A DNA stretch of 27,498 nucleotides from the IMG/VR virus record IMGVR_UViG_3300032293_001716, positions 1-27,498 of that record; one strand, given 5' to 3'. Below the pieces are notes generated by a model that saw nothing but the letters and a program-made list of their open reading frames with translations, was not told where the DNA came from and made no database searches. Positions within the stretch are counted from its first letter, which is position 1, and each line of letters begins with the position of its first letter. The DNA comes from a virus. Positions 4,738-25,465 of this stretch are shown here, in pieces. A program made the translations under genes and the position numbers.

Positions 4738-5636
4738 CCGAACCCAAGCGCACGCCACACCGGCAAATCCAAGCCGCTCTCCGGATCGGCTACCGCGTCG
4801 CCGCGAACCTGTCGGCGGCCGGGTATCAGCTCGGCGACCCAATACCCGAGGCGTTCGCCCGTGACGTCGAGCTCTCACAGCTCGGCCGGCTTCACGGCGT
4901 GCTTCCCATGACAATCGAGCGGTGGATCTCGCTCGGGTGGGATCCGTCCAGCCCGTTCGGCCTCCGCGACCCGCACGACCCGAACAAGCCGCTCACGGGT
5001 GCGAACCCGCAAGTCGCCCGCGAGATCCAACGCGCCGCAACCGCGGCCGCATGGGCTCGGCAGAAGGCGCGACGCGCCGAAGAACGCGCCCGTGAGAGCG
5101 CCGAGCAAGCGGCCCGGCTCGTGCCATGCCGAACCATCGAAGGCTTGCGGGAGGCCGTCCTAGACGCTTCTGAGACGCCCGCCCATCACTTCGAGCTCAC
5201 CAACGCGGCCGTGTCCGCGGTTCGGGTCGGCCAGATCGATCACTTCATCGAAACGATTGAGCGCCGCGCCGCCGAGCGTGAGAAGCGCCGCGCCGTCGAG
5301 CTCGCCGAGCTTGACCGTCGACGTGCGCTTGAGGCCGCCAAGCTCGCCGCGTCCGCGGAACGGATCGCCGCCGCGTTCTCGGCCCTCCCCGTGCCGCCAC
5401 CGGTCCCGCCTCCCGAGCGAGCCAAGAAGCAAGTCACGACGGCTCGCCAGTTCGAGATCGACCGCCTCGTGCTCGACGCCCTCCAAGGTGCGATCATGCC
5501 CCTCTCCGCGATCACGCTCGGGCGTCGCCTCAAGATCCCGCCCGTGGACGTGGTCGACGCGATCATGCGCCTCGGGAAGCGCCTCGAACGGGTCGGCACG
5601 AGCTCCAACGGGGCCACCTACCGGGTGCGACCATGA
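4734..5636 (+). CDS. Double helix-turn-helix protein with coiled-coil middle, possible replication/DNA-binding protein
   Basis: A 300-residue protein with recognisable architecture but no certain family. An N-terminal helix-turn-helix-like segment lies near residues 46-68 (LGRLHGVLPMTIERWISLGW). Long Ala/Arg/Glu-rich helices, probably coiled coil, span about 98-130 and 168-215. A Pro-rich hinge follows at 219-227. A C-terminal winged-helix-like domain covers about 238-298, with an ITLGRRLKIPPVDVVDAIMRL helix pair and a closing strand ending in YRV. Two DNA-binding ends joined by a coiled coil suggest a dimer that bridges DNA, as in replication initiation or organisation proteins; this is inference. 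It is coupled by ATGA overlaps on both sides. Confidence 0.82.
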   Translation: MTEPKRTPHRQIQAALRIGYRVAANLSAAGYQLGDPIPEAFARDVELSQLGRLHGVLPMTIERWISLGWDPSSPFGLRDPHDPNKPLTGANPQVAREIQRAATAAAWARQKARRAEERARESAEQAARLVPCRTIEGLREAVLDASETPAHHFELTNAAVSAVRVGQIDHFIETIERRAAEREKRRAVELAELDRRRALEAAKLAASAERIAAAFSALPVPPPVPPPERAKKQVTTARQFEIDRLVLDALQGAIMPLSAITLGRRLKIPPVDVVDAIMRLGKRLERVGTSSNGATYRVRP

Positions 5637-6456: not shown

Positions 6457-6673
6457 GCCAACCACGACGGCCGCCGCTCTCGCTCGCGAGCTCGGTTGCT
6501 CTCGGCAAACGGTGTTCCGTCTCCAATCGGACGGGCTGCTCGAAGTCCAGTTCCCCACGGGTGCGCCTCCGCGCGCCTTGCTTCCTACCTATCAAGACGT
6601 CGCCCGCGTCGAGGCCGAAAGGCTCAAGGCCGAACGCGGCGTCCTCACCTACCAATACCGGAGAATGCGATGA
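6446..6673 (+). CDS. Small helix-turn-helix protein, excisionase/MerR-like fold
   Basis: A 75-residue DNA-binding protein. TAAALARELGCSRQTVFRLQSDGLL near residues 8-32 is a good helix-turn-helix of the kind seen in excisionases and MerR-like or small-terminase-like proteins. A basic helical tail follows. The start is uncertain: TTG 6446 follows GGGGG at good spacing and gives an 11-bp overlap like the preceding junction, but GTG 6434 is an in-frame alternative that adds four residues. The stop overlaps thyX by ATGA. It could regulate early genes or act as a directionality factor; no integrase is visible in this window. Confidence 0.75.
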   Translation: MSTRPTTTAAALARELGCSRQTVFRLQSDGLLEVQFPTGAPPRALLPTYQDVARVEAERLKAERGVLTYQYRRMR

Positions 6674-7503
6674 TCTTGGACAAGTTCCCCAACCCGATCC
6701 CCGTGCTCGACCACGGGTTCGTGTACCTCGTCGACGTCATGGGCGACGACCACGCGATCGTCCAAGCCGCGCGCGTCTCGTTTGACGGCAAGGGCCGGTC
6801 CGACGACCGCGCCTTGATCCGCTACCTCGTGCGCCACGGTCACACGTCGCCCCTTGAGCACGCCGTGATCAAGCTTGAGATCAAGCTCCCGATCTTCGTG
6901 GCTCGGCAGCTCGTGCGCCACCGCACCCAATCCATCAACGAAGTGTCCGCGAGGTACACGGAGCTCCCCGGCGAACGGTACATGCCGAGCCGCGACCAGC
7001 TCCGGGTGCAGTCGCCCGCCAACCGGCAAGGCCGCGGCGAGCTGCTTGACGACCTCGTCGCCGAGGAATGGACCCGGCAAGCCGTCGAGGCCGGGGGCCG
7101 CGCCGATGACCTTTACCGGAACGGGCTGGACGCTGGCCTTTCCCGCGAGATCGCCCGCACGGTGCTTCCCGTGTCGACGTACACGCGGTGGGTCACGACG
7201 ATCAACGCACACAACCTGCTCCACCTGCTTCGGTTGCGGCTCGACGAACACGCCCAATGGGAGGTCCGAGAGTACGCCAAGGCGATCGCCCAGATCGTCG
7301 CCCAATGGATCCCGCTGACGTGGGAAGCGTTCACGGACTACCGGATCAACGGGTACCACTTGAGCGCCCAAGAGCTCGTCGCGATCGTGGACGTGCTCGG
7401 CACGGCCAAGCTTGACGAAGTGTGCGCCGAGCTGCTGAACACCGGCTCCACCCGCCGCGAGGTCGACGCCCTCCGCGCCGCGTTCCTTGAGGTGGCACAA
7501 TGA
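6670..7503 (+). CDS. thyX: Flavin-dependent thymidylate synthase ThyX
   Basis: A 277-residue ThyX, which makes dTMP from dUMP using methylenetetrahydrofolate, FAD and NADPH. The diagnostic RHR-x7-S motif is intact at residues 83-93 ([11 protein letters not shown]), followed by [13 protein letters not shown]. Other ThyX features are the early VQAARVSF near 31 and the helix [19 protein letters not shown] near 155-175, which holds substrate-binding Arg residues. The ATG overlaps the HTH gene stop by ATGA; longer in-frame starts would run into that gene. Phages carry thyX to raise thymidine supply during replication. The motif completeness argues for an active enzyme. A longer C-terminal tail (after about 230) is present. 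Confidence 0.97.
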
Positions 7504-7970
7504 CGCTCCAACCCATCCCGGACCACCTCCCGCCCTGGCAAGCACCACACATCGCGTGGCTCGCCTGCCATGGTCATCCGACGCGCTACACCGTGCCCGA
7601 GGGTACCGCGCCCGTGCGGGCCAACCTGCGCGGGGCCGACCTGATCGGGGCCGACCTGCACGGGGCCAACCTGCACGGGGCCGACCTGCGCTGGGCCAAC
7701 CTGCGCGGGGCCGACCTGACCGGGGCCTACCTGCACGGGGCCTACCTGCACGGGGCCACCGGCATCGCGGCTATCGGACCCGTGGGCAGACAGCGCCGCA
7801 TGATCTACGCCGTTGCCCACGACGACGGGCCGATGGTGCAGGCAGGGTGCTGGTGGGGCAGCGTCCCCGACATGATCGCACGCATCGAGGCCGACTACGA
7901 GGACGATACCGCCGCCCGTGACCGCTACGTTGCGGCGGTGCGGGCCATCGCCGCGTTGGTGATGCCATGA
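7500..7970 (+). CDS. Pentapeptide-repeat protein
   Basis: A 156-residue protein with nine consecutive pentapeptide units at residues 41-85 (pattern A-D/N/Y-L-x-x), which would form a short right-handed quadrilateral beta-helix. The N-terminal 40 residues and the C-terminal domain ([15 protein letters not shown], a GCWWGS motif, and helices) flank it. Some longer pentapeptide proteins mimic DNA and protect gyrase, but two to three coils is short for that, so the role is open. Its start overlaps thyX by ATGA and its end overlaps the next gene by ATGA. Confidence 0.9.
7620..7754 (+). repeat. Tandem 15-bp repeat encoding the pentapeptides
   Basis: Nine in-frame copies of a 15-bp unit (consensus GCC RAC CTG CRC GGG). 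They differ at few positions, so the DNA repeat is nearly as regular as the protein repeat. This suggests recent expansion by slippage or unequal recombination. Confidence 0.85.
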
Positions 7971-12225: not shown

Positions 12226-15200
12226 GTGAGCTCCGTCAAGACGAGCGCCCCGAGCCGCACGACGTCGTCGCGTTGCTCTTCGCCCGTGCCGCCGTGCTCG
12301 ACGGTCCACAAGGCGTCAAGCGTCCCGACGACAACCCCGCCCGCACGCTTCGCCCCTCGGCTCGGCTGGCTCGTGCCCGCGGACACGTCGAGGCCGCGCG
12401 GGAAGTAGGCCACCGGCGTACCCGTCACGCTCCAGCGGTCCACGAGCGCCCGAAGCGTGCTCTCGGCCTCACCGCGGGAGTAGACGGGCGAGCTCCCGAC
12501 CACGATCACATCGGGGTCGTTCTCGGTGGGCTTGTCGCCCCGCACTTGCCACAAGCGATCGAGTGTGCTTTGCCAGCTCAAGGTAACGACCCGACGCATG
12601 GGGGCCGCTTGGCTGGACCGGCGACGACCGTTCGCGGCCTGGAACGACCTGGCCGATCCGACGTTCTCGATCTGCGTGTCCATCCCGTGGGGCAACCCAA
12701 GCACGACGGCCGGGCCGAAGAGCACCTTGAGGTCGGGATACCCGTTCGGCGTGTACGTGTACCCGGCCGGGCTCACCTTGATCCGGAAGCCCTTGGCGTA
12801 GCCGGTCCCGTTGTGAACGATGACCGAGCTGCGCGGGAACACCACACGCCACGAGCTCGTCGAGCTGGTTTCGGTGCCGTCGCCGTCGAACGTGATCGTG
12901 GCGAGCTTCGACGTCGCGGACGGCCACAACACGCCCGAGGTGTTGCCGGTGATGCGCCGCGCCCGGTTGCCCGAGTCGACGCAATAGCCACCCACGAGCT
13001 CGTCTTGCTCCACGAACGGTCCGGCCGTGACCGCGTAGCCCGTGACCGGCACGAGGGTATCCCCGCGCCGCCGGAAGCCCCCGACGAAGTTGGTGTCGAC
13101 GTTGGTTGCCCCGGTCCAGTTGGTGCCGTCGTGCCACTCGTAGGCGATCCGCGTCACGTCTCCGACGACGGCCAGCGCCCACAACGGAGGGATCGCAACG
13201 GCCTCGTCGTTGAACTTCCACGCGATGATCTCGGCGCTCGCCGTGTTGCTTGCCCACCGATCGGACGGGCTCGGGTAGTCCGTGGACCATGCCGCGAACT
13301 CCACCGGGGTAGGCGAGGCCGCGGACAACGCCCACGTGTCGCCCACACGGGCCGGGCCGTTGTAGCCCGCGACCCCGAAGCCGAGGTCGGAATAGAGCGG
13401 CCGGATGGAGACGGGCGCGCCGATGTTGAGGCCGTCGCGGTTCACGCTCTCGCCGTAGGCGTTGAAGGTCGCCCCGTATGCGGACGATCGCCGGTAGACG
13501 GAGAAGGCGTAGATCCGCGACGTCTGGACGCCACCCGCCCCGCTGATACCGATCTGACTCAGCGGCGAGAAGATACCTGAGCTGAGCGTCTCGTCGACCA
13601 CGTGGGTCCACTCGGTCGGATGGTCCAACGCCCAATCCCGATACCACACGGTCGCCTTGTTGCTGTCGGCCCACACGAAGATCTCGTGGGGGATCGTGGA
13701 GCTCGCGAACGTGACCGTGGCCGCCGTGGTGCCCGCCCCGACGTCGTGAACCGTGAAGCCGGTGGGCGTGATCGTGACCTTGATCGCGTACTGGTTCGTG
13801 TTGTCGTCGACCTGCACGAGCAAGTCGAGCGTGCCCGCGGTCACACGACACGCGAGCCGGGCCAGCGCCGGATACGGGGCACCCGAGAGAACCTTGGCCT
13901 GGTAGCTGCTTGCGCCCGAAGCAACGTCTACCTGGTAGTAGGCCGTGCTTCCGAACGCTTCGATGATCGATCCCGTCGTCGTCACGGTGAACGTGTCGTC
14001 GAGGTGATCGGTCGGAACCCACGCCACGTTCATCGCCACCCGCGCGCCGATCTCGCGCGTCGAGGCCGCACGCCGGGCCATGGGAAGGCCGGTCCATCCG
14101 CCGAGGTGCAGGCACGTGATCGAGTCCTCATAGGTCAGGAGATCCGTGTTCGCCCCGACGAAGATCAACGCCCGGTCACGCCACCAACAACCCGAGGCCG
14201 CGGTGATCGTCTTGCCGTCCCGCCACATCGCGGCCGGGCTCCACGTCAATCCCGCGTCCGTCGAGTAGTGCACGATCCCCGACCCGGTCGCCGTCGCCGG
14301 GGCGTCGCTCATGGAGTAAAGCCACGCGGTCTCGTCGTAGCCACGCACGAGCACGAGCCGATCCGTGTCGCCCGACGTGTAAACCGTGCCCTCCACCGTG
14401 ATCACGTCCGCGTCGCCGAGCGTCGAGTTTGCCGAGGCCACGGTACGAACTTGGAGGTCGCCCGTCGTGACGTCGCCATAGGCAAGGATAAACGCGCCCG
14501 CGATGTAGGCCAAGCTCGCCCGGTCCCGCACGTTGGAGATCGTGACGTTCAAGCCGGTGAAGGTGATCCCGTCGTTGCTCGACGCCTGGTAGAGCGTGTC
14601 GTTCTGCGTGACGATCGCCATGACCTGGCCGCCACCCGCGGCGACCTGCAAGAAGCTCGCGTAGTACCCGCCGACCTTCGGGATCGGGCTCTTGAGGAGG
14701 TCGCTTTGCGTGGTCGTGAACGCGGAGAAGTCGGCCAGCGTCGCCGAGGTCGCATCCTCCGATGCCTCGATCATGGCGATCTGAGTCGTCTCGAACTTGC
14801 TGTTGTGGTTCAGGAAGTAGATCCGCACGTACCCGTCGCCCGTCGCGACGACCTGCGGATGCCGGTAGAAGGCCTGCACGGAGCTATCCGAGGTCGCGGA
14901 CGTGAACCAAGCTCCCGAGGTGGACCGGACCCGGATCTTGATCGTGGACGTGCCCGAGCTGTAGTACTCGGCCACAAGCACCACGCGCCCGTCCGGGAGC
15001 GTCGCGGAGCTCATGGACCAAAGGCTTTGAGTCTCCGAGGTCGACCAGCTCACCGGCTCGATGTACCCGACCTCAGTAGGCGCATCCCACGAGGCGAAGT
15101 CGGCCGCGCCGCTCACACGCTGTTGAAACGTCGCCGAGCCGTCCGGATACCCGCCACGCTCGATCTTGACGTTGATCGCCGCGGTGTTGCTCGTCGGGGT

Positions 15201-15356
15201 GCCCGAGCCAACAAGACGCATCGCCGAGCCCGCGGAGGCCGTCGCCGGACCGGCGAACACGTCCCGCTCGGTTGCCGTCGTCTCGGCCGTCCAAAGCTCC
15301 GCGTCCGCGAAGGCCGCGAGGATCGGGTACTGCGTGCGCGTCTCGTAGCTCGGCAT
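12222..15356 (-). CDS. Large tail fibre/host-recognition protein with Asp-box (sialidase-like) repeats
   Basis: A 1044-residue beta-rich protein. A clear Asp box, STDAGLTW, sits near residue 365, and a variant, SSNDGITF, near residue 260. Both lie within about 100-380, which reads like a BNR/sialidase-type beta-propeller. Residues about 450-620 look like a lectin-type beta-sandwich, and the last 170 residues (RRVVTLSWQSTLDRLWQV onwards) look like a distal-tail-protein-type domain; both are inference. I chose the ATG at 15356, whose A is shared with the tape measure stop (TGATG); an ATG four codons upstream is possible. It directly follows the tape measure gene. It probably binds, and perhaps cleaves, a cell-surface glycan. 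Catalytic sialidase residues were not identified. Confidence 0.8.
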   Translation of the reverse strand: MPSYETRTQYPILAAFADAELWTAETTATERDVFAGPATASAGSAMRLVGSGTPTSNTAAINVKIERGGYPDGSATFQQRVSGAADFASWDAPTEVGYIEPVSWSTSETQSLWSMSSATLPDGRVVLVAEYYSSGTSTIKIRVRSTSGAWFTSATSDSSVQAFYRHPQVVATGDGYVRIYFLNHNSKFETTQIAMIEASEDATSATLADFSAFTTTQSDLLKSPIPKVGGYYASFLQVAAGGGQVMAIVTQNDTLYQASSNDGITFTGLNVTISNVRDRASLAYIAGAFILAYGDVTTGDLQVRTVASANSTLGDADVITVEGTVYTSGDTDRLVLVRGYDETAWLYSMSDAPATATGSGIVHYSTDAGLTWSPAAMWRDGKTITAASGCWWRDRALIFVGANTDLLTYEDSITCLHLGGWTGLPMARRAASTREIGARVAMNVAWVPTDHLDDTFTVTTTGSIIEAFGSTAYYQVDVASGASSYQAKVLSGAPYPALARLACRVTAGTLDLLVQVDDNTNQYAIKVTITPTGFTVHDVGAGTTAATVTFASSTIPHEIFVWADSNKATVWYRDWALDHPTEWTHVVDETLSSGIFSPLSQIGISGAGGVQTSRIYAFSVYRRSSAYGATFNAYGESVNRDGLNIGAPVSIRPLYSDLGFGVAGYNGPARVGDTWALSAASPTPVEFAAWSTDYPSPSDRWASNTASAEIIAWKFNDEAVAIPPLWALAVVGDVTRIAYEWHDGTNWTGATNVDTNFVGGFRRRGDTLVPVTGYAVTAGPFVEQDELVGGYCVDSGNRARRITGNTSGVLWPSATSKLATITFDGDGTETSSTSSWRVVFPRSSVIVHNGTGYAKGFRIKVSPAGYTYTPNGYPDLKVLFGPAVVLGLPHGMDTQIENVGSARSFQAANGRRRSSQAAPMRRVVTLSWQSTLDRLWQVRGDKPTENDPDVIVVGSSPVYSRGEAESTLRALVDRWSVTGTPVAYFPRGLDVSAGTSQPSRGAKRAGGVVVGTLDALWTVEHGGTGEEQRDDVVRLGALVLTELT

Positions 15357-17254
15357 CAGCTGGCCCATCCGAGGTAAGCGGTCCGGTTCATCGACCTCGC
15401 GATATCACGGGCGAGCGGGACGCGGACGGTCCGATCGGTGAGGTCCAAGAACACGTTGACCCGGCCGCCACCTTCGCCGCTCTCTCCGAGGCGTCGACGC
15501 ACCTGGTCCACGCCACCGTTCGCCGCGACCGTGGTAGCCGGCACCACGACCTCGCCGCGCCGAAGAAGCGCCGGCCCCTCGTCGGGCTGGACGGGCTGGA
15601 TCGCACCCGCGAAGCGCCCCGTGTGGAAGCTCGGCAGGGGTTGTGCCGCGACCGCCGCGGCCGAAGCCACCGCCGCCGCACCCGCCACGACGGCCAGCGC
15701 CGTACCCGCCGGAGGTGGCACGGTGAGCGCCGCCATGACCGCTTGCACGCCCTTGATCGCGACGTCGAAGATCGCCGCGGCCTTCTGAGCCACCGCAAGC
15801 TCACGGATCGCCTTGCGGCCTTCCTTGGTGTTCTCGTCGAACATGCCCGAGATCGTGTCGAGCGTTTGCCCAACGTACCCGGAGATCGAGGCCACGCCGT
15901 CCACTTGGCTCTTCTCGTAGGCAAGGCGCTGTTCCCGGTCCCGAACGTAAGCCTCGTGCGCGGCCTCGTCTTGAAGGCGTGCGATCTCGGCGATCCGCTT
16001 CTCTTCCAGATCGATCGCCTCTTGGAGCTGCGCGTTCGCAAGCTCGGTGTCGAACTTGGAGCTGATCCGGAACTCAATGTCGGGGAGGTCGTAAAGCTCC
16101 GCGGCGAGGTCTTGGAGCTCGGGAGCGACCTTGTTGAGGTACCCTTGTCGCTTGTCGAAGGCGTCGGAGAAGGCCTTGAACGCTTCGTCCTCGATCCGCT
16201 TCTGTTCGTCCGCGACGGCCTGCAGGGACTTGACCCAATCTGCCTCAAAATCCTTGAGGAACTCCTTCCGCTCTTGTGCTTCCTTGTCGGCCGCACGCTT
16301 CCGATCGTCGGCCCGCTTCTTGGCCGCCGCCTCCCGATCCTTCTCGGCCTGCTCTTGCTCCCGCTCGAACTCTTCGAACGAGCGTTGAAACTGATCCATC
16401 CCGGCCGTGATCTGCTCGGCCTCTTCGAGCCGCTTCTTCGCAACCTCCGCGCCTCGGGTTGCTTGGCCGTCCATCAGCTTGAACACGGCGTATTGCGTGA
16501 GCCCGCCCGCCCTGGTGATATCCACCCAAGTTGAGATCGCTTCGTCAACCCAATCGATCCCGGTCTTTGTCGCTTCCTTGAGGTTGTCGACGCTGTCTTG
16601 AGACTTCTTCTCGATGAAGTCGAGCGCCCGCCCAATGTTGTCGCTCAACGACACGTAGGTGTTGGACAGCTTCGTGATCAGCGGCGACACTCTCTCGGCA
16701 ATCATCACGGACTGATCTGCGAGAACCAGATCCATAGCTTCAAGCGCGTCGCGCGCATCGAAGATCGCCGTCTCGGTGCCGTTCAAGCTCGTCGTGTAGT
16801 CGTCCAAGTTTCGGACCACGTCGACCGTGACGGAGACTGCCTTGGAGAACACCGCCAACAACGCGCCGACCGAGATCACGACGGCCGCGACCTTCGGATC
16901 CATCATCCCGAAGGCATCGCCGATATCGCCGATCGGACCGGCCAGCCCGCCGAATGCGTCGCCTGTGAGCGCCGCGGCCTTGCCGAGCTTGGAGAAGCTC
17001 TTCTCCGCCGTCTCGCCGACGCCGTTGTAAGCGTCGCCCGCCTTCTTGGCCGCACGGGTCGAAGCCTCGGCCGCTTGCTTGGCCGCCGTCTCGGCTGCCT
17101 TGGCGGCCTTCTCGCTGGCCTTCGTGACGCGGCTTTCAAGAGCGAACGCGGCCTTGATCGCTTCTTGATCCGTGACCGGCCCAAGCTTCTTGACCTCGTC
17201 AACGTACCGTTGAAGATCCGCGATGATCCTAACTTCTGCGTTTTCACCGGCCAT
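15356..17254 (-). CDS. Tail tape measure protein
   Basis: A 632-residue tape measure protein, which sets tail length and is ejected with DNA. It has an Ala/Lys-rich coiled coil at about 40-75, a hydrophobic stretch at about 121-137 (VAAVVISVGALLAVF), and long charged coiled coils around 275-350. The C-terminal part is Ala/Val-rich and hydrophobic, then SFHTGRF and DEGPALLRRGEVVVPA, a typical tape measure ending. No muramidase or peptidase domain is seen. At the usual 0.15 nm per residue it predicts a tail near 95 nm. The ATG follows a strong GGGGGAG site. It overlaps the upstream small tail gene by 11 bp. Confidence 0.92.
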   Translation of the reverse strand: MAGENAEVRIIADLQRYVDEVKKLGPVTDQEAIKAAFALESRVTKASEKAAKAAETAAKQAAEASTRAAKKAGDAYNGVGETAEKSFSKLGKAAALTGDAFGGLAGPIGDIGDAFGMMDPKVAAVVISVGALLAVFSKAVSVTVDVVRNLDDYTTSLNGTETAIFDARDALEAMDLVLADQSVMIAERVSPLITKLSNTYVSLSDNIGRALDFIEKKSQDSVDNLKEATKTGIDWVDEAISTWVDITRAGGLTQYAVFKLMDGQATRGAEVAKKRLEEAEQITAGMDQFQRSFEEFEREQEQAEKDREAAAKKRADDRKRAADKEAQERKEFLKDFEADWVKSLQAVADEQKRIEDEAFKAFSDAFDKRQGYLNKVAPELQDLAAELYDLPDIEFRISSKFDTELANAQLQEAIDLEEKRIAEIARLQDEAAHEAYVRDREQRLAYEKSQVDGVASISGYVGQTLDTISGMFDENTKEGRKAIRELAVAQKAAAIFDVAIKGVQAVMAALTVPPPAGTALAVVAGAAAVASAAAVAAQPLPSFHTGRFAGAIQPVQPDEGPALLRRGEVVVPATTVAANGGVDQVRRRLGESGEGGGRVNVFLDLTDRTVRVPLARDIARSMNRTAYLGWAS

Positions 17255-17777
17255 TATTCTCCCCCACGACCCGCTTTGCGATCCGCTTCGACAAGTTCAT
17301 AGCCGGACGCCGGAACAACGTCGCCCAAGCACTCTTGCCCTCTTGACCGGACGGGGTGTTCGGGTCGTTCGCGCCCCACTTCACCACGTAGGTATACGGG
17401 GCGTCGCCCTTCAAAATCACGGTGAGAGCCCCGTTCGTTTCCGGGAACGTGACGTTGAGGCCGTTCTTGGAAAACCCCGTGTCCACGGGCCACTTGTCCA
17501 CCGCGTCGCGGACGAACGGCACGAGCTCGTCGGCCATGGCCCGAGCCACGCGATCAAGCCGCGACGACGTGACGTTCGCGAGCGCCGCGTTCAATGAGGC
17601 GTCGAAGCTCACCCAATCGCCCATGACCATGCGCCGCGTGAAGTCGGCGGGCTTGAGCTCTTGGCCTTCGGCAAGACCTCGAAGGGTGCGCTCCATGATC
17701 GCGAGCTCGCCGAGGATCCGCTTGCCCGCGGTCGCTCGGTTCCTCGCACGTGTCGCCTTGTCAAGTTGAGTTGCCAC
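17244..17777 (-). CDS. Small tail protein between chaperones and tape measure
   Basis: A 177-residue protein. A helical N-terminal half (ATRARNRATAGKRILGELAIMERTL) leads to a section resembling tail-completion proteins (ADELVPFVRDAVDKWPVDTGFSKNG, then strands, YTYVVKWG and a basic end). The P-V-D-T-G-x-S/L context recalls HK97 gp10-like tail proteins, but that is a weak similarity. The GTG start at 17775-17777 overlaps the frameshifted chaperone end by 17 bp. Position suggests a role in tail assembly or as an added tail component. Confidence 0.72.
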   Translation of the reverse strand: MATQLDKATRARNRATAGKRILGELAIMERTLRGLAEGQELKPADFTRRMVMGDWVSFDASLNAALANVTSSRLDRVARAMADELVPFVRDAVDKWPVDTGFSKNGLNVTFPETNGALTVILKGDAPYTYVVKWGANDPNTPSGQEGKSAWATLFRRPAMNLSKRIAKRVVGENNGR

Positions 17778-18326
17778 CGCGAGCCCCCTTCACCGCGTCG
17801 AGGATCTTCTTCCTCGAACGTTCCCGGCGATCCTTCTCGTCGATCAACCCGACCGCGAGAAGAGCCGCCAAGTCCTCGGCGGGGAGTCGGTGAGCCCACA
17901 ACGGCTCCTTGCCCATAGCCAGCGAGCGCCGGATCAAGGCGAGGTCGGTTGCTCCGTCTGGGCCGTCGAGTTTCCCGCAAGGTCGTCCGCCATGACGAAC
18001 GGAGCCATGCGCTCCGCGGCCAGCTCGGCGAGGCGTGCCGCTTCCTTGACCAACCCCACGAGCCCGTCCGAGTCCATGGGGAGGCCCTTCCCAAGAAGCC
18101 ACTCAAACACCGCGTCACCGAACACGAGCAAGTCGGGTCCGGCTTCTCGGTGAGCCGCGGCCACCTCGGAATGGTTTAGGAGGTGCAGGCCAACCAAGGC
18201 GGCCGCGCGGCTCACGGCACCGGTTCCGGTCGACGGCATGGCCGCCCACCGTTGCCAAGCGCCGAGAGCGCACGCACGCCCCCGAAGCATACCAACACCC
18301 GGAACGCTCACCTCGCATCCGAGCAT
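17761..18326 (-). CDS. Tail assembly chaperone, -1 frameshifted long form (GT-like)
   Basis: Joins codons 1-119 of the short chaperone (18326 to 17970) to a -1 frame (re-reading 17970, then to 17761), giving 188 residues. The added 69-residue part contains ATDLALIRRSLAMGKEPLWAHRLPAEDLAALLAVG and a basic end (KDRRERSRKKILDAVKG). It has no credible start or ribosome site of its own. The first codon after the slip is CTC, and the frame stays open to the TGA at 17761-17763. In lambda the GT form links the tape measure to tail tube subunits; the same role is expected here by gene order (tail tube, chaperones, tape measure). Confidence 0.85.
17934..18326 (-). CDS. Tail assembly chaperone, short form (G-like)
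   Basis: A 130-residue helical protein encoded upstream of the tape measure, in the position of lambda gpG. It would coat the tape measure while the tail tube polymerises. The ATG at 18324-18326 follows GGGAG. Helices include RAAALVGLHLLNHSEVAAAHRE and VGLVKEAARLAELAAERMA. Near its end the codons GCG-GGA-AAC hold the slippery heptamer that lets some ribosomes continue into the second frame. The unshifted product ends 11 codons later (STAQTEQPTSP), a polar tail. Confidence 0.88.
   Translation of the reverse strand: MLGCEVSVPGVGMLRGRACALGAWQRWAAMPSTGTGAVSRAAALVGLHLLNHSEVAAAHREAGPDLLVFGDAVFEWLLGKGLPMDSDGLVGLVKEAARLAELAAERMAPFVMADDLAGNSTAQTEQPTSP
17970..17976 (-). other. Programmed -1 ribosomal frameshift site GGGAAAC
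   Basis: On the minus strand, bases 17976 to 17970 read G-GGA-AAC, with GGA and AAC as zero-frame codons. This is a perfect X-XXY-YYZ heptamer; lambda uses GGGAAAG. It sits in the overlap of the two chaperone frames, 12 codons before the zero-frame stop. I found no clear downstream stem-loop, so the stimulator, if any, is not defined. Confidence 0.85.
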
Positions 18327-18340
18327 TTCAGACTCCCGTG
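18324..18340 (-). repeat. 17-bp junction repeat, copy A
   Basis: Minus strand CACGGGAGTCTGAAATG covers the end of the tail tube gene, the GGGAG ribosome site and the chaperone start codon. It matches copy B at 19283-19299 in 16 of 17 bases. The two copies bound a two-gene cassette. Confidence 0.75.
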
Positions 18341-18804
18341 GCCGTCAAGCCGTAGGCCATACCCGACACGGAGATAACGATCGCGTCGCCGCTCTCGTTG
18401 AGGCTCGCCGTGAGGTAGGCGTTCGTCAGATTGATCGTGGACGCAACCCCGCCGAGCGTGGTGCTGTAGACGATCGTGTAGGTCATGGGGCCGTCGCCGC
18501 CTGGGTTCGTCGTCGTGGCAGCGGACCAAGCGCCCGCCTTGAGCACCGCGTCGAAGATCGTGCGGGAGCTCGCGTTGCGGAGCTCGTTGCTCTTCACCGT
18601 GCCGGTGAACGAGAACGAGTGCGCGGCCTGGTCGCCGTGGACGTAGGCCACGAACCGCTTGCGATGCATGATCGCAACGGCCGGGGCTTCGTTGTGCTGG
18701 ATGGAGTCGAAGGTGAAGTCGCCGACGTCGGAGACGGTGAGCGAGGTGCCCACACCGTCGACGATCTGCACCGTGGCGTGCTCTTTCGTGAGGAAACCGG
18801 CCAT
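18328..18804 (-). CDS. Major tail (tube) protein
   Basis: A 158-residue beta-rich protein of tail-tube type: short N-terminal region, strands (VQIVDGVGTSLTVSDVGDFTF), the block FDAVLKAGAWSAATTT near residue 85, and GPMTYTIVYSTT near 105, ending in a strand (AIVISVSGMAYGLTATGV). Such proteins stack as hexameric rings to form the tube. It lies directly upstream of the chaperone pair in transcription order, the usual place. The ATG at 18802-18804 follows GGAAG. The call rests on gene order and pattern, not on a certain family motif. Confidence 0.75.
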   Translation of the reverse strand: MAGFLTKEHATVQIVDGVGTSLTVSDVGDFTFDSIQHNEAPAVAIMHRKRFVAYVHGDQAAHSFSFTGTVKSNELRNASSRTIFDAVLKAGAWSAATTTNPGGDGPMTYTIVYSTTLGGVASTINLTNAYLTASLNESGDAIVISVSGMAYGLTATGV

Positions 18805-23407: not shown

Positions 23408-25465
23408 TCACTCGGTTACCGGCCCGCCCACAACCCAAGCGTCGCACGTGCGAGCCGCAGCACACTTGAAGTCGAAGGCTTCACACCACCCAAGACGCCC
23501 CGCCGCGACGACCTCGCCCGCGTCCGCGCCGATCCCCTTCTCGATGCAGGCCGTGAGCCGCGGCCCCACGTTGAAGAAGGCGCAGTTCCCGCAAACCATC
23601 GTCCGCACCTGGTCGACGGTGGAGCGCATCCGATCGGCCTTGCCCTGCCAGTAGTCGCCGGGCTCGTCGGGGTTGGCCGGGCCATAGGCCGCGACGTCGA
23701 TCGCCTTCTGGCGGTTCTTGAGGTTCGCGGCGACGTCCAGCGTTTCGATCGGACAACCCGCGTATTCGTCCGTGCCCTCGTCCTCAAGGTCGTCCTCGGG
23801 GCTGCCTTCCAGCTCCACGACGGGCTCCACGACGGGCTTGACAACGACGGGACCGGGAACCGGCTCGGTGCTCGGTGCCGTGCCGAGAAGCCGATCCGCG
23901 AGCTCGGGAGGCAAGCGGTAGAACTCCACGAGGATCGCCTTCGCACCCGCCGCGGGGATATCGCCCTTCGCGGCCTTCTCGACGATCGAGACGGTGGCGT
24001 CAATGACCTTGGCCTCGTTGTCGTCGATGCCCTCCCCGAAGTCGTGGCCGGGCTTCTCGCCCTCGGCGATCTCTTCTTCGGCCTCAAGCGCCGCCTCGTC
24101 GGCCGCGATGCGCTTGAGCTCCGCGATCGCTTGCGGCCTGGTCATGCCGGGGTTGCGACGCATCATCACGTCGACCTGCGAGGCGTACCCGTTCGACACG
24201 CTCCACTCGTCGCCCTCCCGCTCGTTGCGGAGCTCGTCGGGGCTGGCCTGGATCTCGTGGTAGACGATCCCCACCGTGGAGACGTCGAGCCCGAGCAAGG
24301 CCCCGACCTGCGCGATCGTGGCGAGGTCGCACGCTTGGCAGAGCGGGTTGCGGCGCTTTTGCTCGTCCCGCTTGGCCGCGTTGGTGAGGTGGATCGCCGA
24401 GCCGGACATAGGGTTGGCCGACACCCGCATGGCATCGGTCGGGGTGATCCCCATGCTCATCACGACGTGTTGGCTGTAGCTCTGCGCATACTGAGCCAAG
24501 GCCGGGAGGGTGTCGACCTCGCCGATCTCGGAGACGCTCGGCTGATACCCGTCCGCGGTCCGGTGGACGGTCACAAGGTCGCCGGGGTTCACCGCGAGCG
24601 CCCGCCCCGTCATGCCCGACGACGTCGCCGTGGAGCTGCCAATGTCGATCGTGCCGTCGAGGATCAGCGCGATCTTGCCCGTGCTGTTGAGCGCCGCCCG
24701 GTTCGCGGCCGTGCTCAACATCATCGTGTTGAGCGTGCCGATCGCCGCGCCGCGCCCCACCTTCCAGTTCCACAAGTCGCCCACGTCGCGGGAACGGTCG
24801 ATCGACCACGGGAGGAACGGCCGCCCCGAGGCGTCGATCCACGGGTAGACCCCGACCAGCTCGGGGGCGACCTCCGCGGTGATATCCGCTCCGAGCTCGC
24901 CGCCTTGACCCGCCACGACGACCCGGAACACGGGGGCCGCCGGGTCGCGCACATCCCATTCATCCCAAGCGAACAAGGCTTCCCCGCCCACGTACCGCGA
25001 GCGGAGCCACCGCATGACAACCGGCCGCGTGCCGTCCGAAGGGTGCGGCTCGGCCCACAAGTCGCAAGGCGGCACGACGTGAAACACGGGCTCGCCGTCC
25101 ACGATCGCCACGTGTTGAGCGCACGCCCCGAGGCAGTAGGCCAAGAACTCCCGCCACTGCGCCTTGGTCCAAAGCGACCGCGTCGCCGGGTCAAGCCGCC
25201 CCGAGGCGTCGCCCGTGATCGCGGGGATCTGGCCGTAGTGCCCCGGCGTGGACACCGAAAGGCCGATCTGCACGAGCGGGTTCATCGCCGTGTCGGGAGG
25301 TCCGAACCGAGCAAGGCGGATCTCGTCGAGGTGGAAGGCCATATGCCGTTCAACGAGCTCGTCGCAGTCCTCCACCGCGAGCATGAAGCGCCGAGTCGTG
25401 GAGCGCACCCGGTCTCGCTCCCAAGCCGGGAAAACCATTTCGGGGCTGATCAAGTTCGACCGCAT
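23408..25465 (-). CDS. Portal protein with C-terminal cysteine-rich domain
   Basis: A 685-residue protein directly downstream of the terminase large subunit. The N-terminal 430 residues have portal features: TAMNPLVQIGLSVS, the YCLGACAQHVAI stem-like stretch, LWNWKVGRGAAIGTLNTMMLS, DLVTVHRT, and a Met-rich wing helix (HVVMSMGITPTDAMRVS). The helical crown includes ELKRIAADEAALEAEEEIAEGE. Beyond this an acidic Pro/Val linker leads to a last domain of about 70 residues with six Cys (CGNCAFF, TACIEK, GWCEAF, KCAAARTC then DAW). The tail could bind zinc or an iron-sulfur cluster. It makes this portal longer than most. The ATG follows GAGGTGG. Confidence 0.85.
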   Translation of the reverse strand: MRSNLISPEMVFPAWERDRVRSTTRRFMLAVEDCDELVERHMAFHLDEIRLARFGPPDTAMNPLVQIGLSVSTPGHYGQIPAITGDASGRLDPATRSLWTKAQWREFLAYCLGACAQHVAIVDGEPVFHVVPPCDLWAEPHPSDGTRPVVMRWLRSRYVGGEALFAWDEWDVRDPAAPVFRVVVAGQGGELGADITAEVAPELVGVYPWIDASGRPFLPWSIDRSRDVGDLWNWKVGRGAAIGTLNTMMLSTAANRAALNSTGKIALILDGTIDIGSSTATSSGMTGRALAVNPGDLVTVHRTADGYQPSVSEIGEVDTLPALAQYAQSYSQHVVMSMGITPTDAMRVSANPMSGSAIHLTNAAKRDEQKRRNPLCQACDLATIAQVGALLGLDVSTVGIVYHEIQASPDELRNEREGDEWSVSNGYASQVDVMMRRNPGMTRPQAIAELKRIAADEAALEAEEEIAEGEKPGHDFGEGIDDNEAKVIDATVSIVEKAAKGDIPAAGAKAILVEFYRLPPELADRLLGTAPSTEPVPGPVVVKPVVEPVVELEGSPEDDLEDEGTDEYAGCPIETLDVAANLKNRQKAIDVAAYGPANPDEPGDYWQGKADRMRSTVDQVRTMVCGNCAFFNVGPRLTACIEKGIGADAGEVVAAGRLGWCEAFDFKCAAARTCDAWVVGGPVTE

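Follow-up and report, generated by a model that had tools for sequence, protein, structure and literature searches.

A conserved and very probably programmed -1 frameshift site in the tail-assembly chaperone gene of an uncultured phage lineage

The question raised by this locus is whether two overlapping reading frames in the tail region of an uncultured phage are joined by the ribosome into one longer protein. The DNA under study, referred to as the window, is a 27.5-kb stretch from IMG/VR, and its zero-frame tail chaperone gene is called TCa, while relatives of the phage, taken from IMG/VR contigs and metagenomes, carry L numbers (L009, L126 and so on). The locus is very probably a programmed -1 frameshift in a tail-assembly chaperone gene, maintained as a conserved recoding site, the slippage itself being something that we infer from sequence. 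The features concerned are the following:

18328..18804, minus strand: putative tail-tube (major tail) protein gene, named from position and conservation
17934..18326, minus strand: TCa, zero-frame, G-like tail chaperone gene, 130 aa, ATG start
17970..17976, minus strand: slippery heptamer GGGAAAC, phase G_GGA_AAC in the TCa frame
17761..17970, minus strand: -1 frame extension, T-like domain, 69 aa (codon usage; homology to the L126 extension)
17244..17777, minus strand: tail completion/neck gene (phrog_5 'tail completion or Neck1', E 7.8e-6)
15356..17254, minus strand: tape-measure protein gene, 632 aa (phrog_3336 tape measure, E 2.2e-10)

In the overlap of the two tail chaperone frames, GGGAAAC is found at 17976..17970 in phase G_GGA_AAC, as a preliminary description of this DNA had claimed, and the zero-frame TGA is the twelfth codon past AAC, with 11 sense codons between, so that the distance of 12 codons given there was also right. 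When a strict slip heptamer is defined as X_XXY_YYZ, where Y is A or T and Z is not G, this is the sole one in phase in the 15 minus-strand genes of the window that were checked, and one of three present on that strand in any phase. The word "canonical", applied to it in the same description, holds as regards the strict match in phase, but for such heptamers the label fits eukaryotic ribosomes best. The chance of a strict heptamer within the frame overlap was about 0.017 for random codons with this phage's usage, and 0.045 when the TCa codons were resampled synonymously. With chances of about 2–5%, GGGAAAC by itself goes only modestly beyond coincidence, and therefore further evidence was needed.

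Part of this evidence comes from the -1 frame, which contains no stop between 18102 and 17761, the end point originally proposed. A codon-usage score, trained on the other genes of the window phage, shows the zero frame giving way to the -1 frame at about 17970-17910, with preference for the -1 frame from about 17940, and this in turn to the frame of the neck gene, which starts with GTG and overlaps the end of the -1 frame; in the window and in the relative L126 alike, the extension ends inside the following gene. The predicted fusion comprises 119 + 69 = 188 aa, and its junction, Ala-Gly-Asn-Leu-Asp-Gly, had been correctly predicted from sequence. The accompanying statement that the -1 frame lacks a start of its own can be retained for GTG 18102 and ATG 17916, whose ribosome-binding sites are poor, but not for TTG 17901, which is preceded at short spacing by the Shine-Dalgarno-like AAGGAG. 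The conserved part of the window extension starts upstream of this TTG, and the extension of L126 has no ATG, GTG or TTG until residue 32.

Along the minus strand, terminase and portal are followed by (scaffold), capsid and connectors, and these by tube, chaperone, neck and tape measure. Family profiles identify TerL, the neck/tail-completion gene and the tape measure, and the capsid only marginally; the names portal, capsid and tube are probable assignments drawn from position and relatives. The tail-tube protein of the window matches no PHROGs or Pfam family, and is 30% identical to the proteins found at the same place in L013 and L014. The chaperone gene lies between the tube and tape-measure genes with one neck gene intervening; following the tube directly and preceding neck and tape measure, it has the placement expected of a tail chaperone. 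The ATG of TCa is found 1 nt past the tail-tube stop, with a Shine-Dalgarno-like GGGAG upstream of it, and the window does not have the G+C-rich, terminator-like hairpin followed by T's (GCGCCCCCC...GGGGGGCGTTT) which separates the tube and chaperone genes in L014 (about 5400-5450) and also in L013. On the plus strand the window encodes a ThyX thymidylate synthase (6496-7503), an Erf-like annealing protein (1638-2300), an SSB (2297-2704) and, at 7500-7970, a protein in whose translation pentapeptide-like repeats (ADLxGANL pattern) can be seen.

Since neither chaperone frame matches any Pfam or PHROG family, relatives were sought by means of the portal, tail-tube and terminase proteins. Searches seeded with single proteins (TCa, tube, terminase or capsid) returned no relatives, and the entry point was the C-terminal Cys-rich domain of the portal, aligned with that of phage DSL-LC01. 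This domain is fused to the portal C-terminus at 23411-23785 (minus strand) and has 367 related stretches in IMG/VR; similar stand-alone proteins are annotated as 'high potential iron-sulfur protein' in public phage records. The loci L009-L014 have terminase, portal and capsid in common with the window, and L013 and L014 extend into the chaperone gene. An alignment of tail-tube proteins then led to 38 loci and one of terminases to 80 loci, L126 included, and a scan seeded with the terminases of the window and L126 returned L126 alone. In public phage records, tblastn left the neck, the capsid and the relatives' chaperone with its extension unmatched, and gave distant partial matches for the terminase and, for the portal, matches only via its Cys-rich C-terminal domain; a scan of GTDB gave distant terminases only, in Hyphomicrobiales and Bradyrhizobium. 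The contigs of many relatives (L092, L094, L118, L178, L188, L190 and others) measure 27–31 kb, near the 27.5 kb of the window, which suggests that these phages form a lineage with genomes of about 30 kb that is missing from the public phage records searched.

The closest relative, L126, has a terminase 53% identical to that of the window, and its connector (48%), tube (38%) and neck (34%) proteins are also related to those of the window (all by tblastn; further comparisons gave 37% for the tube and 35% for the neck). In its chaperone gene (14842-15231, 129 aa), GGGAAAC stands at 15192-15198, phased as in the window, with 10 sense codons between heptamer and stop, compared with 11, and its -1 extension (15198-15422, 74 aa) aligns with the window extension. 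When the L126 extension was searched with phmmer against the 439 six-frame ORFs of the window, the -1 frame was the best match (E 9.5e-7) and the next had E 1.9; the reverse comparison, of the window extension with the L126 -1 frame by tblastn, gave E 2e-4. The zero-frame part is weakly conserved, TCa and the L126 chaperone giving no significant pairwise match; a profile of the relatives' TCa proteins ranks that of the window first of the 439 six-frame ORFs, with E 0.027 when L126 is left out of the profile and 0.003 when it is included, a rank that a search with L126 alone does not give it.

In 59 loci the extension profile also finds a reading frame that lies at -1 to that of the chaperone, and 57 of these loci have an assignable chaperone start and fall into 29 clusters at about 95% identity. 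In all of these 57 more distant loci a slip site lies just before the homologous -1 extension, and it reads GGGTTTT in 22 of the 29 clusters and a TTT-containing variant in the other seven, distributed by cluster as follows:

GACTTTT: two clusters
GGATTTT: two clusters
GGCTTTT: one cluster
GAGTTTT: one cluster
GGATTTC: one cluster

In 28 of the 29 clusters the slip-site Phe codon is TTT, compared with 19% TTT for Phe in the long ORFs of the same loci, a large contrast which, as the clusters share ancestry, is not to be read as an independent-sample probability. Moreover, in 17 clusters the -1 frame is devoid of ATG, GTG and TTG between the stop before it and residue 20 of the extension, so that ordinary separate initiation is ruled out in them, and in several clusters that preceding stop directly adjoins the heptamer (TGAGGGTTTT). 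The preliminary description had named beforehand, as grounds for refutation, a loss of conservation in related phages; what was found is that both frames, the slip site, its phase and the distance to the stop are kept. Its proposal of a conserved translational device of the lambda G/GT type is likewise supported by the GGGAAAC of L126, the 57 loci with mostly GGGTTTT, and the order of the tail genes.

These data bear on other ways in which the two frames could be accounted for. Phages often have small genes whose ends overlap, and the AAGGAG at short spacing before TTG 17901 would suit a separate small gene in the -1 frame, with its own start (at this TTG, for example, or at ATG 17916) and reinitiation after the TGA at 17934; nevertheless, the extension is conserved from its first post-slip residues, upstream of both candidate starts, the conservation of the slip codons extends to their synonymous sites, and start codons are missing before residue 32 in L126 and before residue 20 in 17 of the 29 other clusters, which makes this arrangement very improbable for the window. 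The reading in which GGGAAAC arose by coincidence and the -1 frame is untranslated draws on the odds within the overlap, on account of which sequence alone would not be decisive. The -1 frame, however, carries this phage's codon usage and is homologous to the -1 frames of the relatives, L126 having the same heptamer, and, with both frames conserved, chance is refuted in substance and retains hardly any probability.

A change of one base, whether a deletion or a sequencing error, can mimic a frame overlap by splitting one continuous gene, but L126 and 57 further loci, drawn from many metagenomes, show the same -1 relation, in every case at a site prone to slippage, so we give this practically no credence. 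Equally negligible is a shift made by the RNA polymerase instead of the ribosome: transcriptional slippage is also able to yield fusions, but generally needs longer homopolymer runs, and GGGAAAC offers only two runs of three, with a conservation of phase that fits tandem tRNA slippage.

Under programmed ribosomal frameshifting, most ribosomes would read 18326..17934 and make the 130-aa chaperone, while a minority, on decoding GGA and AAC, would slip back one base on G_GGA_AAC and go on in the -1 frame to 17761, yielding the 188-aa fusion. If lambda is a guide, the short form may coat the tape-measure protein and the extension may recruit tail-tube subunits; the occurrence of slippage, its efficiency and these protein partners we infer. 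As regards efficiency, neither a downstream RNA structure beyond chance (z about -0.2) nor a Shine-Dalgarno-like element upstream of the heptamer was found in the window. In L126 (15182-15261), the heptamer is preceded at 4 nt by AGGAGG and followed by a stable hairpin (z -3.9), possible stimulators that are absent from the window; across the relatives the picture is mixed (mean z -1.3), and none is put forward as conserved. In E. coli, AAG as second codon shifts more than AAC, as demonstrated for A_AAA_AAG versus A_AAA_AAC (PMC5009743). A low efficiency would thus be expected from AAC as the weaker A-site codon, as judged from E. coli.

In lambda, gpG and gpGT are made at about 30:1; G binds the tape measure, whereas T binds the tail protein (PMC5009743). 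The window gene resembles lambda G/GT (G_GGA_AAG) in its location between the tube and tape-measure genes, in its GGG-AAA slip site and in what is predicted for it, a -1 shift close to the end of the chaperone frame with a short and an extended product. It differs in the Z base, which is C, in the shorter extension (69 aa) and in the neck gene placed between chaperone and tape measure, and no sequence similarity between the two was detectable in the libraries searched. A structure model of the window TCa, with a middling pLDDT of 69.6, led to no useful fold match. That of the L092 TCa was confident (pLDDT 89.1); among viral proteins it matched best an uncharacterised one from a marine virus (E 4.1e-3) and, of those with a name, the tail protein GT of phage N15 (O64329; prob 0.89, E 0.099, a weak match and not significant alone). 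Since no match in the structural searches, PDB included, passes E 0.001, the likeness to N15 GT is supporting only. Matches of the TCa alignment to PDB profiles, mainly designed helical proteins and globins, were dismissed.

The C variant had been presented as occurring in an apparently unfamiliar phage; GGGAAAC is indeed present and the frames match no family, but the variant itself was already published, in the tail chaperones of Caulobacter phage Colossus (PMC3556154) and Burkholderia phage KL1 (PMC3483164), and as the G_GGA_AAC listed for that of haloarchaeal virus HCTV-1 (PMC5009743). Heptamer and kind of gene are identical in these three and in the window, a likeness taken from published descriptions only. 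GGGTTTT, the heptamer of the window's distant relatives where the window and L126 have GGGAAAC, is described for a gene of the same kind, the tape-measure chaperone of Burkholderia phage PhiE067 (PMC7266877), again likened by description. The mechanism and both heptamers are therefore already known, and the frameshift gene of the window is real but ordinary, very probably encoding a chaperone pair of the lambda G/GT type.

Somewhat new is the occurrence, in one homologous family, of both A-type and U-type sites and of variants in the P-site half. Slip sites are either U-type (G_GGU_UUU) or A-type (G_GGA_AAC) with the GGG half kept, and the members with GACTTTT, GAGTTTT, GGATTTT or GGCTTTT hold the A-site half only and preserve the extension; whether poor re-pairing in the P site suffices, as this would imply, we consider evenly balanced. 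The chaperone family would lend itself to experiments on the relative importance of the two heptamer halves, relatives with differing slip sites at the same position serving as test cases for the P-site and A-site re-pairing needs of bacterial ribosomes. In addition, current family libraries miss this frameshift gene, so that annotation tools would lose the extended tail chaperone in this uncultured lineage. The loci with a non-canonical P-site half (GACTTTT, GGATTTT, GGCTTTT or GAGTTTT) are L106, L120, L097, L099, L114, L122, L131 and L192, and in all of them TTTT is invariant.
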